Part shown: positions 34,049-42,986 of the stretch, piece after piece
Layout of the letters: each line of letters starts with the position of its first letter
Numbering within the stretch: the stretch's first letter is position 1
Assembly: GCA_903832665.1 (NCBI GenBank)
Contig: CAILCG010000014.1
Span: forward strand, 1-64,000
Source: an uncultured Methanomicrobiales archaeon
Lineage (GTDB): Archaea > Halobacteriota > Methanomicrobia > Methanomicrobiales > Methanospirillaceae
Length of the DNA stretch: 64,000 bases
Reading direction: 5' to 3'
Made by a program: the position numbers and the translations under genes
Notes under the pieces: generated by a model
What the model saw: only the letters and a program-made list of their open reading frames with translations
Database searches by the model: none
Told to the model about the DNA's origin: nothing

Positions 34049-34873
34049 TCACGTTACCATGAAGGGTAAAGTATTGGAATAGACCGGGCCGGGATTGGTT
34101 ACACCAACATTTCTGATCTGAGCAGCAGCGATATCTGCCGAACGTACGTTCAATGTCAGATGCTTTGAGGAAATATAGGTGGTGTCTGATTGTTGTGGAG
34201 CTCCGTGCCAGGTTACAATGGATCCCGGGACAAAACCAGTGCCGTAGATATTGAGAGTGAAAGCAGGCCCCTTTGCAATTGCAGTTGATGGACTTATGCT
34301 GGTCAGTGCTGGACCGGCCGGGATTGCCGTAGGGGTGGGGGTAGTTATGGTAGTGGGCACCGGATTTATCGTTGGTTGCGTGGTGAGGGCGACACTCTGG
34401 TCTCCCCATTGAGCGATGAGAATGTGTGCGGCATCATCAACCAGACGAATGCCGATTGGTGAGAATGGAACGGATTGGGCAGCCGGCTTGGCAATGTCTG
34501 ATACATTGTTGGTTATCCGGTAGCCACTTGAACTGTTGAATATGTACAGCATTGTCCCCGGTCCAAAGGAATCAATCCCCGGAAGGGGTAATGCACGATA
34601 ACTGCTGGATGGTGTGTCAACGTAGATACTCATCAGGTAGAGACGGCTTCCCGATGCTACGAGATAGGCAGTATCTCCACCCTTGTTAAACATGCTGATA
34701 ATATTTTTTCCAGAAATACTCTGGTTCTGGATATTCGGCACAATAAATGCAGATTTGCTTATAGGGTGATAGAAACCGGAGATAAATACCGCAAAAATTG
34801 AGACAAGCATGATGACGAGAAGGATCATCAGGATCGCTCCAATAACGCTGGTTAATCCGGATTCATTTTTCAT
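34049..34873 (-). CDS. Type IV pilin-like protein with IPT/TIG C-terminus
   Basis: A 274-residue protein with an archaeal pilin-type N-terminus (MKNESGLTSVIGAILMILLVI): a short charged leader, then SVIGAILMILL, which forms the hydrophobic spine of archaeal pilins and is the site cut by prepilin peptidases. The body (about 40-170) is beta-rich. A Thr/Pro linker then leads to an IPT/TIG domain (about 190-270; SISPSTAIAKGPAFTLNIYG). The pilin plus the TIG domain suggests a surface adhesin carried on a filament. The 24405 peptidase may process it. Confidence 0.8.
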   Translation of the reverse strand: MKNESGLTSVIGAILMILLVIMLVSIFAVFISGFYHPISKSAFIVPNIQNQSISGKNIISMFNKGGDTAYLVASGSRLYLMSIYVDTPSSSYRALPLPGIDSFGPGTMLYIFNSSSGYRITNNVSDIAKPAAQSVPFSPIGIRLVDDAAHILIAQWGDQSVALTTQPTINPVPTTITTPTPTAIPAGPALTSISPSTAIAKGPAFTLNIYGTGFVPGSIVTWHGAPQQSDTTYISSKHLTLNVRSADIAAAQIRNVGVTNPGPVYSNTLPFMVT

Positions 34874-36127: not shown

Positions 36128-37247
36128 TCATTTTTTGTATCCGAGGGCTGCTGCCCTGGCATGTGCAACCTGGCAAAAATATTCAACCTGACTATCCAGA
36201 CTACCGGTTTCGAGTGCAGCGTGTGCTGGACACCACATACAAAGATTGATGATGGGGCAGACGTGGCAGGTGCCCAGGTAGTCCTTGCAATCTGAACGCA
36301 TAGCCATTACTGTTGGTATGAAGTGCTGCCATGCATCCTGGACAGATATTTTTTTCACGTCGCAGATACAGTCCGGATGGCAAAGGGATTCGCAGAGCCG
36401 GAACATACCCTCGGGACTAATGACAAAATTGCTATCGCCTGCACCGCAAAAGAAGAGGTGATTCCCTGTTTCGGGGCTGAATCCGGGTAAGATATACTCA
36501 TGACAGTTTTTTCTCAGAGCTTTGGCCCGTTCGTCATCAGACTTTTCCAGTAAAACGATCTCTTCCGGGGTGAGCCGTTCCGTTCGTATTTCATCGTTCC
36601 GGACGAGGTCGTGGTCCATTCTCAGGTGCAGAAAGGGATCAAACCGGTAATAATCCTTGGTGCGGGACCGGGAAAATATCGTAATCTCCGGGATCTCATG
36701 GAGGTTTGAACGGATTGCCATGGCCTTGAGCCTGACCTTTATTCCTGCGTCCTGAAGCAGATCAAGCCCCCTCATGAAGGCATCGAATGAACCCGGTCTC
36801 CTGCTGATCGCTTCGTACGTCTCCCGGGTGACACCATACACCGTTATCTCAATGTCGCGGGGGGGATACCGGAGGAATAAGTCTATGTGGGTTTTATTGA
36901 TCAGGGTCGCATTGGTCATGACAGATACCAGAAGCCCTTTTTTCTTGAGGCCGAGATAAATCTCGGCGAAATTTGATCGAAGCAGAAGGTTCTCCCCCGG
37001 TGATGTTGCACCAGACTGCCCCCAACCGGACGGCCTGATCTGCGATATCGAGAATCTGTTCCGTACTCAACTCCTTCTGCCGGGCGCGGGCATCTTCAGC
37101 GGGAAGATTGATGTAGCAGTGACGGCAGTTATTATTGCAACGGGAAGTGACTTCGAGGGTAAAGGATTTGCAACCTCTCTGGTTTTCCATCTTCTCCCAT
37201 AAGGCAAATTCCTCAACAAGTTTTCGTGTGATCAACGGGAGTGGCAT
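36128..37247 (-). pseudogene. Radical SAM/SPASM peptide maturase B, frameshifted
   Basis: About 373 residues when repaired. The first frame (37247-36894) has a Cx3Cx2C iron-sulfur motif (C37, C41, C44 in TSRCNNNCRHCYINLP) and CNITGGEP. It then goes off at about 36995, where an extra T in CCTTCTG breaks frame. The other frame resumes with LLRSNFAEIYLGLKKKGLL and runs to 36128. The C-terminal SPASM-like region has many Cys (CGAGDSNF, CESLCHPDC, CKDYLGTCHVCPIINLCMWC, EYFC) for auxiliary clusters. Such enzymes crosslink or epimerise precursor peptides. It is the last gene of the peptide-modification cluster. Whether the frameshift is real is unknown. Confidence 0.85.
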
Positions 37248-37340: not shown

Positions 37341-37880
37341 TCATGGCGCTGGGGGATTGCCGGATTGTGACCTGGAACCGCCAAGGGTATAACCTGCCAG
37401 GCCGCGCAATTTGTGAAGCCCAGCAGTACATACTCGATTTGGAAGTCTGATCACCCGGGATATTCTCCAGAGGAAGCCATGCCGACTCATAAAAGCGAGC
37501 AGGGCCCGTTCCGGTCCAAGCCCGGCGGGTATATTCCTGCCATTGCATTCAACCTTGGTGACATTACCAATGATTTTGGGAAGGGGAATCATGCCATCGG
37601 GCTCTTCCCGGTTATCTCCTTTGGTCTCGAAGGCATTATCTCCGCATTTAACAACACGGTGAATGATCAGGGTCCCACAATTGGGCAGTTCGAAAGCCAC
37701 AACGTCTCCCGGTGATGGACGATCTGAGGAAAACGGTACAATAGTGACGATATCATGGTCCTTGATAAACGGGTACATGCTGGAACCGTATGCAGCGAAA
37801 CGGAAGGGTTTTCTTTTTTCCATCGCTGCTTTTACCAGTTCAAGCCGGACCTCGCCAGAGAAGGATCCTTCGTCCTCCAT
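37341..37880 (-). CDS. Sec11-type (S26) signal peptidase-like protein
   Basis: A ~179-residue peptidase in the RiPP-like cluster. The catalytic Ser is in AAYGSSMYPF (about residue 34) and the following parts GTLIIHRVVK and ETKGDN carry the His and Asp of the Sec11/archaeal S26 type. Membrane anchoring is not obvious, and the usual N-terminal helix is missing, so it may be a cytosolic or peripheral peptidase trimming the modified peptide. The start is either ATG 37880, 20 bases after the PqqD-like gene, or GTG 37886; longer upstream frames overlap that gene. The C-terminal 40 residues are not family-like. Confidence 0.72.
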   Translation of the reverse strand: MEDEGSFSGEVRLELVKAAMEKRKPFRFAAYGSSMYPFIKDHDIVTIVPFSSDRPSPGDVVAFELPNCGTLIIHRVVKCGDNAFETKGDNREEPDGMIPLPKIIGNVTKVECNGRNIPAGLGPERALLAFMSRHGFLWRISRVIRLPNRVCTAGLHKLRGLAGYTLGGSRSQSGNPPAP

Positions 37881-37902
37881 CCTCACATAGGATCCGGTTT
37901 TT

Positions 37903-38205
37903 TCAGATTGCAACGACGATTTTCCTCCGGAAGAGTTCCGTAATAATTCCCTGCACATCCCGTTCGATCTCTCCGTCATGAGCATCATATTCTGCAGCCA
38001 GGTCAATGGCAATTTCCTGAAGGCTCAATTTACCATCGAGCCGTTCCCAGATACTCCTGCCGGTCTCATTTAATGTATAGATCTCGTCTTCCTGATCGCC
38101 AATTCCCGATGCAAGGGGCACGATGATCAGTTCCCCCATGATCTCGCGTGAAACCACATCCTCGGATCGCTGGAACACAGAGTCGCGGGTAATTACTATC
38201 TCCAC
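37903..38205 (-). CDS. PqqD-like RiPP recognition protein
   Basis: A 100-residue protein of the PqqD family, whose winged-helix fold binds the leader of a precursor peptide and hands it to a radical SAM enzyme. Characteristic are ELIIVPLASG, IYTLNETGRSIWERLDGKLSLQEIA and LAAEYDAHDGEIERDVQGIITEL. The GTG start has GGTGA just upstream. The position between the precursor gene and the peptidase gene supports a role in leader recognition. Confidence 0.9.
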   Translation of the reverse strand: MEIVITRDSVFQRSEDVVSREIMGELIIVPLASGIGDQEDEIYTLNETGRSIWERLDGKLSLQEIAIDLAAEYDAHDGEIERDVQGIITELFRRKIVVAI

Positions 38206-38363: not shown

Positions 38364-38588
38364 TTAAGAGGCGTTAGGAGTAATACAGGCAATGCAGATT
38401 CTATGCTGTCCATGACCACCGATTTTGATCATGCAGGAGGATTTACTGGAGTTTGAATTTGAAGTGCCCTTATCGGCAGCCTTAAAGGAAATTATTTGCG
38501 TGGCATGTTTACATTTCGTAAGAAGGTTCTCATCCGAGGTGTTCCGCACCAAGACAATCAACTCGGGTTTTGTCCAGGATTTCTTCAT
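38364..38588 (-). CDS. Candidate RiPP precursor peptide
   Basis: A 74-residue peptide, MKKSWTKPELIVLVRNTSDE then NLLTKCK and a core rich in Ser, Asn and Gly. The K-x-W-x-x-P-E-L-I-V-L-V-R stretch (residues 3-15) and the ENLLTKC that follows look like a conserved leader of Cys-containing peptides modified by radical SAM enzymes. Cysteines are at 26, 52, 65 and 68, the last two in CIAC. I choose the ATG at 38588; an upstream ATG at 38609 adds seven residues but lacks a ribosome-binding site. It lies directly between the radical SAM/SPASM gene and the PqqD-like gene. Confidence 0.75.
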   Translation of the reverse strand: MKKSWTKPELIVLVRNTSDENLLTKCKHATQIISFKAADKGTSNSNSSKSSCMIKIGGHGQHRICIACITPNAS

Positions 38589-38618
38589 CGTAAAATGTTC
38601 CACGGGCATACTATAATT

Positions 38619-39817
38619 CTATTCTTTTGTTCCGGTATATATCCGTTCGGACAACGCCATGATCCTCCCGGGCCAATCGATAACATCCCATGCACTCTCA
38701 CCCCGATGGAGGAGCCCGAGATCCACAGCCTGGACATGGGCTACCCTGCAGAAATACTCCACCGGAGTATCAAGCGTCCCATGCTCCATCCAGGATTTTG
38801 CAGGGCATTGCTCGCACATCCCCCTCAGGAAACAGCGGGCGCAACGGGAAAGATACTCGGGATTTGTGGCCTCCTTCTCCCGCAACTGAGGAAAGAACCG
38901 GGTGAGTGCATCATGGAGAGAACCAGCAGGGCGTATACTGTTTCAGGATGCCTGAGCAGGAGGCAGGGCTGCAGCACGCCATAGGCATCCACACAGCCAC
39001 CGAGACCGGCTCCGCAGGGAAAGAGTCTCTCCCCGGGGGGTCGCATGAATCGTGAACAGAAGTCCTGCATATGTTTACTATACACCTGCCGGTTCTGGGA
39101 TAGTATGGCTAGGCCCTCCTCCGGCGATATACGCAGGCTTTCGATAACCAGGTTCTTTGCCGGGGAATCACGTCGACAACGAAGGTCCAGAAACAGGGAA
39201 TAGACAGGAAGGACTTTCATGGCCGGAATGGTCGACTCCCAGTTTTCGAACAGTGCGATTTCATCACGGTTCGTGGGGAGAAATGAACTTTTCACCACAA
39301 ACGGAATCTTCCGGTCAAGCAGGAGATCGATACCCCGCCGGAACTCGTCATACGATCCACTAACCCGGGAGACCGCTTCATAGGACGTTTTTGTCATACC
39401 ATAAACCGTGACCTCCATCAACTCCCGGGGGGGAACACGGGCGAGCAGGTCTGCTATTGCCGGGGTGATGAGCCGGGCGTTCGTGAAAATCATAACATTC
39501 AGGCCAAGTCTCCGGGCAAACAGGTATAGTTCCGCAAAATCCTTCCGCAGGAGGGGCTCTCCTCCGGTAAATCGTACGGAAAGAGCCCCAAGTGTTGCAG
39601 CTTCGATCAGGATCCGTTTGACTTCCCCGGTTGGGATCTCCCGTTCCCGGGCAGCATCCTCTTCGGGGAGGTTGATGCAACAATGGATACAGTCATTGTT
39701 GCAACGCTCGGTCAGCTCCAGGTCCAGGCTGCCCAGCAAAGGAGTCCTGTTTTTCCAGAGATCATAGGAAGTGGCGTTGACGTTGACCACGTAGGGCGAT
39801 GGGATCTCATCAGTCAT
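38619..39817 (-). pseudogene. Radical SAM/SPASM peptide maturase A, frameshifted
   Basis: About 399 residues if repaired. The first frame (39817-38825) shows the iron-sulfur motif CNNDCIHC (C39, C43, C46), VRFTGGEPLLRKDF, then CGAGLGGC and CLLLRHPETVYALL. At about 38935 one G seems missing from CTGCTGGTTC; the other frame gives GSLHDALTRFFPQLREKEAT and the SPASM end CARCFLRGMCEQC and EYFCRVAHVQA. Its ATG overlaps the stop of the HPr-kinase-like gene (ATGA). It is closely similar in layout to maturase B but distinct in sequence. It probably modifies the nearby precursor. Confidence 0.87.
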
Positions 39818-40656
39818 GTCAATGTTCCTCCAGGAGGTGGAGCCTGCACCAGGTCTCCGAGTTCTTTCACGATTGCCCCGCTCTTGTTAAACTGCATCGT
39901 AAAACAGGGTACTTTTTCAACAATCTTCTCCAGCACGTCGAGTTCCTTCTGCCACCAGGCCTCCGTTACCATCGGCCTGATGAGCGTAGCAAGCAACCGT
40001 TTCCAAATCTCTCTGCGATCCGTGAGCGGTGTGAGACGGTTCGTTGTATCCTGTTGCAGGAACATGATTGCCCGCAATGGTGCCGATGCTGGCGATACCT
40101 CTGCTACATCTCCGTGACTCCAGGTACCATGAACGAACCACCCGTCATCCTGGTGCCGTATAATGTTGCGGTCATCGCACAAGATTCCTGATTTCAGCCC
40201 ATTTCCGGGATTCGAGTCCTCACCCGGTAAGGCGTTCATCAGGTATACACCCTTGAGCATATTTACGGTCGTGGATTTACCGGCTCCTGAGTGACCAGCA
40301 AACAGCAAGCCCTGTCCATTGACAATCACTCCGGCCGAATGAATCATTACTGCATTCCTGTCCGCTAGGAGCGGGGCCAGCCAGATCTGGTCTGTGGGGA
40401 GATGCGCGAGAGAATCCCACTCGTAGTTGCTGATCTCTTTGCGCTCCCGGGGATGGTGGTAAATTGTCGCATTTGTGTAGTCAGCGCTGAATACCCAGAC
40501 GCGATGCTTTTCCGGATCGTCCCGGGTGGGTGAAATCTCCTGGTAGAGCCACATCCCGTTCATCCGCGAGATTAACCAGGGGGGCTTGCGATAGACCTCA
40601 GTGCCGAGATCACTGGCCGGTATATCAGGAATTCCGAAAACGTGACGGAACAGCAC
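39814..40656 (-). CDS. HPr-kinase-like P-loop protein
   Basis: A 280-residue protein with Walker A GHSGAGKST at residues 121-129, preceded by VMIHSAGVIVNGQGLLFA, typical of HPr kinase/phosphorylase-like proteins in peptide-modification clusters. The later residues DDGWFVHGTWSHGD may belong to the active site. Similar kinases act on lasso peptides and on PqqD-associated systems. GGTGAT before the ATG is a good ribosome-binding site. It is the first gene of the cluster and is coupled to the first radical SAM gene. Phosphorylation of the precursor is inference. Confidence 0.85.
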   Translation of the reverse strand: MLFRHVFGIPDIPASDLGTEVYRKPPWLISRMNGMWLYQEISPTRDDPEKHRVWVFSADYTNATIYHHPRERKEISNYEWDSLAHLPTDQIWLAPLLADRNAVMIHSAGVIVNGQGLLFAGHSGAGKSTTVNMLKGVYLMNALPGEDSNPGNGLKSGILCDDRNIIRHQDDGWFVHGTWSHGDVAEVSPASAPLRAIMFLQQDTTNRLTPLTDRREIWKRLLATLIRPMVTEAWWQKELDVLEKIVEKVPCFTMQFNKSGAIVKELGDLVQAPPPGGTLT

Positions 40657-40893
40657 ATTGTCATCACCAGGCCCGTCAACAGCGAACGGGGTCAGTGCAG
40701 GAATGTCACGATTTCAGGGCCGGCCTATTCCCCGAAGATCTATATGTCGCGATGGGGCTCCTATATCTCCGGGTATGCCCCGATAAAGGATTCAAATGGT
40801 ACGATTGTCGGAATACTGGGAGTTGACGAGACCGCAGCAACGGTACTCAGTTACGATGTTTACCGTTTTTTCAATCTCGTTGAAGTATCGTGA
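40642..40893 (+). pseudogene. C-terminal fragment of a dCache-type sensor domain
   Basis: An 83-codon frame whose second part (YMSRWGSYISGYAPIKDSNG followed by TIVGILGVDETAATVL) is characteristic of the last strands of dCache/PDC extracellular sensor domains. The preceding part of such a domain, its membrane helices and any kinase or chemoreceptor part are missing. It overlaps the start of the HPr-kinase-like gene on the other strand by 15 bases. It is a relic, probably left by insertion of the cluster or by deletion. Confidence 0.6.
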
Positions 40894-41827: not shown

Positions 41828-42185
41828 AGGATCCTGCGGGAGATGATCCATTGGCTCACTTTCTTTTTGGTGATCTTTTAGGTAAGGGATCTCGTGCCCC
41901 CGTCATAATCAAAGTACATCCCGACCCTCTCCTCTTTTTTTGGAGGGGATGGTCGCCCTACAGCACACGTAGGGACCCTCCCCCCTTCGGCTGCATGAAC
42001 AAAAAAACGCTCTCCGTCGTGACTCCATGCGAAGCCGTGCCTGCGAGTATGCAAAAAGGGAGGGGAGGGTCACCCTCCGGGCACATGGGAGGGGGTACCC
42101 ACTTAGCGCAAAGGTGTGGAGGATTCATTTCCAGCAAAAAGATGATGAATCCCCGGCACTAACTATCACCAAAGGATTGTGACCG

Positions 42186-42404
42186 GTGACTTCTTTCCAT
42201 ACCATCAAAGGAAAAGATGCCGTCAAAGCATTTTCCAATGCCGGAGGGAAGGTTCGCCCGGGAAAAGGTGATCATGTCAATATCAAGATGGCGAACGGAC
42301 AACTGATCACCATCCCGGTATCCGGAGAAGTCAAGATCGGGCTCTTGAAAGCCGCGATCAAAAAAGCAGGGTTGACTGAAGAAGAATTTGAAAAATTGTT
42401 ATGA
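42186..42404 (+). CDS. hicA: HicA-family mRNA interferase toxin
   Basis: A 72-residue double-stranded RNA-binding-like toxin of a type II toxin-antitoxin pair. The start IKGKDAVKAFSNAGGKVRPG and the strand with GDHVNIKMANGQLITIP match the family, where the catalytic His is the one in GDHV. It cuts mRNA when free. It is preceded by a GTG start and followed after nine bases by its antitoxin HicB. The pair lies in a region flanked by GC-rich repeats. Confidence 0.9.
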   Translation: MTSFHTIKGKDAVKAFSNAGGKVRPGKGDHVNIKMANGQLITIPVSGEVKIGLLKAAIKKAGLTEEEFEKLL

Positions 42405-42413
42405 GAGATAATC

Positions 42414-42641
42414 ATGGAATACACGATTCTGATCCACAAGGCAGATGAAGGCGGGTTCTGGGCTGAAGTGCCGGCACTTTCAGGCTGCTTCTCACAGGGT
42501 GAGACCATCGAAGAGACAATTGCGAACACCAAGGAGGCAATTGAACTGCATATCTCCTGCCTGCGGGAAGACGGGGAAGAGATCCCGGTTGATAATGAAT
42601 TTATTATAAGCCGCGTACGGGTTGAGACCGTCGCAGTATAA
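42414..42641 (+). CDS. hicB: HicB-family antitoxin
   Basis: A 75-residue partner of HicA. The partial RNase H-like fold is visible in YTILIHKADEGGFWAEVPALSGCFSQGETIEE and the helix after it. It lacks a DNA-binding C-terminal domain of some long HicB proteins, so auto-repression by the complex may need another factor. It binds and blocks HicA. Nine bases separate the two genes. Confidence 0.92.
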   Translation: MEYTILIHKADEGGFWAEVPALSGCFSQGETIEETIANTKEAIELHISCLREDGEEIPVDNEFIISRVRVETVAV

Positions 42642-42986
42642 CGCTGTCCCAACTCTTTTTACACGTTCATTCATGCCTCATCTTCCTCAAGATGCAGCCA
42701 GTCCTGCTTCATGGAATATTACAGATTTCCCGTCATGAGAGGTCACCCTCAAACGATGAGGGAGGAGGTCTCCTCATTTCCGCATGAGTGGGGGGGAGGG
42801 GTACCCCCTCTCTTAACCGGGAGAGGGAGTAGGCAGGCCCGGTATCCCCCCCTCTTATTTTGGACAGGGGTACCCACCCCCCTTCTTTTTTTGGCGTGGG
42901 GGGTGGGTACCCCTCCGGGCATATGAGGGGCTCCCATCCCCCCTTTCGAAATAACGAGCCACAGGTCACCCTTCACGTCAAAAAAG
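42642..42986. other. GC-skewed intergenic region between hicB and HEPN gene
   Basis: About 345 bases with long G and C runs, containing the strong hairpin at 42866-42914. Segments such as CTCCGGGCATATGAGGGG resemble CTCCGGGCACATGGGAGG near 42075-42095 on the other side of hicAB, so the toxin-antitoxin pair is flanked by diverged copies of a repeat. No gene is seen. Confidence 0.6.
42866..42914. repeat. Perfect 17-base inverted repeat (stem-loop)
   Basis: AGGGGTACCCACCCCCC at 42866-42882 is exactly reverse-complemented by 42898-42914, with a 15-base T-rich loop. The arms would form a very stable hairpin in RNA or cruciform DNA. It lies 73 bases before the HEPN gene and 225 bases after hicB. 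It could terminate hicAB transcription or mark an element end. Confidence 0.85.

Follow-up and report, generated by a model that had tools for sequence, protein, structure and literature searches.

The question raised by this locus is whether a short frame lying among enzyme genes in the window, the whole stretch of 64,000 nucleotides analysed here from an uncultured Methanomicrobiales archaeon, is a gene, and what its product would be turned into. In an earlier note the frame had been read as a cysteine-containing RiPP precursor at positions 38364-38588. The frame exists between these positions, but it belongs to the minus strand, the plus strand across 38364-38588 being closed by stops. The product (MKKSWTKPELIVLVRNTSDENLLTKCKHATQIISFKAADKGTSNSNSSKSSCMIKIGGHGQHRICIACITPNAS) has a leader of residues 1 to about 20 followed by a core with four Cys, which are found where they had been placed, at residues 26, 52, 65 and 68, and its C-terminal end is C-x5-Ser; the T-run noticed after the frame is likewise present beyond the stop codon. 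An alternative ATG at 38609 would add seven residues to the precursor, but the MKK start is favoured by the homologues in G173, a genome of the same genus. One of these is full-length (64% identical, E 1e-27) and shows the gene order of the window, with a radical SAM gene on one side, a PqqD gene on the other and a second precursor adjoining, and in the window's own genome the precursor is single-copy. Comparison of the window with G173 gave 0.74 silent and 0.24 non-silent changes per site in the precursor frame, and this silent-change excess is lost in the other two minus-strand frames, which contain 3-7 stops. Judged by homology and by this pattern of substitution, the 74-codon frame is a real gene, conserved under purifying selection. 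Precursors were found at E 0.01 or better in 13 of 232 genomes of the order, two of the 13 being marginal.

Table 1. Features of the window, with position, strand and the evidence for each.
Feature	Position	Strand	Evidence or state
Archaeal type IV pilin-like gene	34049-34873	minus	PF07790 E 9.6e-8
Radical SAM/SPASM maturase 2	36128..37247	minus	profile matches; split over two frames
Signal-peptidase-I-like (archaeal/SipW type) putative leader peptidase	37341..38012	minus	sigpep_I_arch E 9e-13, PF00717
PqqD-fold RiPP recognition element	37903..38205	minus	Pfam PF05402 E 4.9e-15
Precursor peptide	38588..38364	minus	74 codons + stop; homology, silent/non-silent change
Radical SAM/SPASM maturase 1	38619..39817	minus	profile matches; split over two frames
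HprK-like kinase	39814..40695	minus	ScmC E 5.7e-7, HprK_rel_B 1e-5
Cache-domain sensor gene fragment	40642-40893	plus	
HicA/HicB toxin-antitoxin pair	42186-42404, 42414-42641	plus	PF07927 E 5.5e-10, PF15919 E 3e-14
Diverged 28-31 nt repeat units, on both sides of the HicA/HicB pair	41926-41953, 42062-42092, 42846-42930		

The precursor is part of a cassette that lies wholly on the minus strand, in the order HprK-like kinase, radical SAM/SPASM 1, precursor, PqqD/RRE, signal-peptidase-I-like (SpI-like) protease and radical SAM/SPASM 2 (Table 1). The solved chain nearest to the window PqqD is the lasso-peptide PqqD 9x90_B (PDB, E 2.4e-5), and the protease keeps, in conserved columns, the GSSM, IHR and KGDN motifs (Ser, His, Asp). 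Among solved structures the sactisynthase SkfB is nearest to the radical SAM 2 profile. The kinase keeps the GHSGAGKST Walker A and LCDDR motifs, resembles HPr kinases weakly by sequence and matches PDB entries in Walker A only; from weak profile hits together with the motifs it is a putative HprK-like kinase. The HicA/HicB pair is found about 1.5 kb from the cassette.

The same gene set recurs widely. With a radical SAM 2 alignment as query, 84,980 genomes yielded 151 loci, of which 80 were kept. Judged by record titles, these span about 15 phylum-level groups, archaeal and bacterial, including Omnitrophota, Aminicenantes, Chlorobiaceae, Deltaproteobacteria, Chloroflexi, Actinomycetota, WOR-3 and methanogens. 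The set reads (radical SAM 3-kinase), radical SAM 1, precursor, PqqD, protease, radical SAM 2; the third radical SAM domain, fused ahead of the kinase in many relatives, is absent in the window. Within the fetched stretch PqqD was present in 74 of the 80 loci, the kinase in 57 and a recognised precursor in 58, and an MsbA-like ABC exporter is a frequent neighbour (34 loci), as are an NTP_transf_5 nucleotidyltransferase (31) and a methyltransferase (16). A GNAT domain is sometimes present, and some loci hold glycosyltransferases, O-antigen ligase and other polysaccharide genes. A nucleotidyltransferase adjoins radical SAM 2 in G173, the nearest relative, unlike in the window, where no NTP transferase was seen near the cassette. 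In L116, L139 and L143 a GNAT-like acetyltransferase domain is fused behind the SpI-like protease, and L146 has a Pfam GNAT homologue. In a quick tree of the maturases, with archaeal and bacterial labels taken from MAG titles, archaeal rows stand at several places (5 changes, of which supported branches require at least 3), a scatter that would be consistent with transfer.

Relatives of the peptide frame, the search for which had been suggested in the earlier note, amount to 140 non-redundant complete sequences; a diverse set of 44 precursors was also compared. All share the leader K-x-W-x2-P-x-L-I-V-L-x-R-G-K-P-E-E-x-V-L-x2-C-K, and the earlier reading of the frame, a leader conserved in the precursor of a RiPP, is supported; such a leader does recur next to SPASM maturases, as the note had put forward, in methanogens and many bacteria. 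The distance from Trp to Cys-Lys is 21 in 117 of the 140, four Cys are present in 86, 111 have their last Cys at -7, and the final pair of Cys is arranged as CxxC (69) or CxxxC (28). Ser closes 119 of the peptides and Thr another 9, compared with a Ser content of about 9% inside the cores (binomial P about 1e-101, a value inflated by the relatedness of the precursors), which places the C-terminal Ser among the most fixed core residues of the family. In window numbering W5, P8, E20, L23, C26, C52 and C68 are invariant in the 44 diverse precursors, the leader is more conserved than the core, and the window peptide fits every family rule. Conservation across the family falls on the C-terminal Ser and on the frame of four Cys; the Ser/Asn-rich stretch occurs in the window peptide alone, and the thioethers to Ser/Asn alpha carbons that had been proposed are without support. 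Short precursors with a conserved leader and a variable core beside an RRE and maturases across genomes are, as far as gene content can tell, a RiPP cluster. That the peptide is instead an unmodified small Cys peptide with a metal-binding or redox role is suggested by the CxxC with two further Cys, but such a peptide would hardly be expected to have a leader more conserved than its core and a fixed place beside RRE and maturases in about 15 groups, and we hold this explanation to be very improbable.

No model of Pfam or NCBIfam covers the precursors, and their commonest sub-threshold matches are to lasso precursors: the paeninodin model NF033524 was the commonest match (7 of 44), though insignificant (best E 0.058). 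The motif strings were not found in the literature searched, most subscription journals lying outside the search, so that an earlier description is possible; within the same bounds, no system combining an HprK/HPr kinase with radical SAM RiPPs was found described. A methanogen precursor with two tandem leaders and an almost Cys-free core ending in RIG was seen at L037:8151-8462 (plus strand), equal to L117:9028-9339, in a locus with PqqD and radical SAM 2 only. The idea that loss of the kinase covaries with loss of the C-terminal Ser, prompted at locus level by L117 and L178, was dropped because these genomes, with their odd C-termini, hold a kinase elsewhere.

The two SPASM maturases, the four Cys and SkfB as the nearest solved maturase would all fit an ordinary sactipeptide or ranthipeptide, with Cys thioethers made by radical SAM enzymes and a kinase that is incidental or has another target. 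SkfB and PapB are indeed radical SAM enzymes of the SPASM type with Cys-rich peptides as substrates, their sequences being distant from the window maturases. However, a kinase found in 57 of the 80 loci and often fused to a radical SAM domain is hardly incidental, the C-terminal Ser is as fixed as almost any core residue, and the sactipeptide precursor models gave no match beyond noise; we know of no HprK-like kinase or SpI-like protease in sactipeptide or ranthipeptide systems. We regard this explanation as unlikely.

Slightly more doubtful still is membership of the SynChlorMet (Scm) cassette (TIGR04248-TIGR04252) with a divergent ScmA precursor. The parts are the same, namely an HprK-like ScmC, a PqqD-like ScmD, two SPASM proteins (ScmE and ScmF) and a neighbouring SpI-like protease, and the window proteins match ScmC, ScmD, ScmE and ScmF weakly, but their bit scores against the curated cut-offs of TIGR04248-04251 (29/125, 24/100, 57/400 and 63/400) are all far below. 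The precursors also differ, ScmA-type peptides having YxxP and a Gly/Cys core: ten archaeal loci found by the ScmC model (nine over its cut-off) were without a precursor of the window's family, eight of them having YxxP peptides with mostly Gly/Cys cores, and the ScmA model TIGR04252 gave a single match to the 44 precursors, at E 0.24. Membership was rejected on these two grounds, enzymes below the cut-offs and different precursors in true Scm loci, and by the same comparison the window cassette stands as a sister to SynChlorMet, outside it. Small peptides with a YxxP leader and, for the most part, Gly/Cys-rich cores lie near ScmC in the SynChlorMet-type loci L098-L105, for example at L098:8934-9212 (minus), L100:8052-8243 (plus), L101:8065-8226 (plus) and L103:8924-9190 (minus). 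A real ScmA in L097 (8998-9180, minus) matches TIGR04252 at 6.5e-18, the sole match among six peptides scanned, so the family of Scm precursors reaches beyond what its model covers.

Closer guidance to the product comes from two systems studied by others. In lasso peptides, the precursors receive a phosphate on their C-terminal Ser from the kinases PadeK and PsmK, and the pseudomycoidin cluster has a nucleotidyltransferase homologue with the phosphorylated Ser as its target (PMC9266682). In the system of the linear polyphosphorylated peptides (LPP), LppK phosphorylates, LppB binds and LppS cleaves precursors with a [Y/W]xxP leader, the SpI-like peptidase cutting 16 residues from the Tyr (PMC13381572). 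The paeninodin system (PadeA/PadeK, PsmN) resembles the window's family in its WxxPxL leader, PqqD-type RRE, nucleotidyltransferase and an HprK-like kinase directed at a conserved C-terminal Ser, whereas radical SAM maturases and four Cys set the window's family apart; neither a lasso cyclase (asparagine-synthase-like) nor a B2 protease was among the recurrent neighbour families of the loci. The LPP likeness extends to the [Y/W]xxP leader, discrete RRE, SpI-like leader peptidase, HprK-like kinase, NTP transferase, MsbA-like exporter and a location partly in polysaccharide loci, and at family level the RRE, peptidase, kinase, NTP transferase and ABC exporter occur together. In contrast, the LPP leader is YxxPxVLxHQxIxFET against WxxPxLIVLxRGKPEExVL in the window's family, the LppK target is Ser3 of the LPP core and not the C-terminus, no radical SAM enzymes are mentioned for LPP, and LPP is confined to Bacillota (PMC13381572). 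By gene content, the cassette has the kit that LPP and the paeninodins share, with radical SAM maturases apparently standing in for the lasso cyclase.

The most likely product, as predicted from these comparisons, is a leader-cleaved peptide with radical-SAM modifications at the four Cys and a phosphate on the C-terminal Ser. By analogy with the lasso and LPP systems, the W-x2-P-x-L leader would dock on the PqqD-type RRE, which would present the precursor to the enzymes. Two radical SAM/SPASM enzymes, often with a third fused to the kinase, may then modify the core around the four Cys; we infer this chemistry from the enzymes present, thioether or C-C cross-links being the likeliest form. Since the C-terminal Ser is fixed and a kinase gene lies nearby, a phosphorylated peptide end is predicted, the HprK-like kinase acting on Ser or, rarely, Thr, and in clusters that have one the NTP_transf_5 protein could decorate the phosphate further. 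The SpI-like protease would cut off the leader, probably directly behind the invariant Glu at Trp+15 (Glu20 in the window), which matches the register of the LPP cleavage site, and an ABC exporter, where present, would secrete the product. Because the modules are those of paeninodin and LPP, the C-terminal Ser is fixed and a Glu stands at the cleavage register, C-terminal phosphorylation and SpI-type leader removal are, by analogy, the best-supported of these steps.

Whether the copy in the window still makes such a product is another matter. Radical SAM 1 is one base short near 38925 and radical SAM 2 has one extra base at about 36975-36985, the relatives being intact at both places, and the kinase is without the N-terminal segment present in relatives, its 5' junction lying near 40.70 kb; the Cache-domain fragment abuts the truncated kinase there, a likely recombination junction. 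The precursor, PqqD and protease are intact. The frameshifts could, we infer, reflect recent decay or two local sequencing errors. Constraint, as silent versus non-silent change, is visible in both parts of each split maturase. Frameshifts are infrequent in the assembly, since 50 frames with a length of 400 aa or above are intact in the neighbouring 264 kb of the contig, and decay is favoured over sequencing errors because the 5' end of the kinase is lost. With both maturases frameshifted and the kinase truncated, the window cassette is therefore probably inactive or decaying. The earlier note, right about the precursor and its leader, had overlooked these broken maturase frames, as well as the kinase, the SpI-like protease, the C-terminal Ser and the wider family.

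Taken as a whole, the locus is probably best explained by an undescribed RiPP class in which Cys-directed radical SAM chemistry, a C-terminal Ser phosphate and leader cleavage are combined, the local copy being in decay. There is about an even chance of the wider proposition, a distinct inter-domain RiPP class with Cys cross-linking, C-terminal Ser phosphorylation and possibly sugar or nucleotide transfer, which has spread horizontally among anaerobic archaea and candidate phyla, in some cases within polysaccharide loci. If true, three RiPP lines, the paeninodins, the LPPs and the window's family, would be linked by one phosphorylation module. The precursors also provide a searchable motif (W-x2-P-x-L, C-K at +21, terminal C-x5-S) for a class without a Pfam or NCBIfam model, which occurs in methanogens and uncultured anaerobes.
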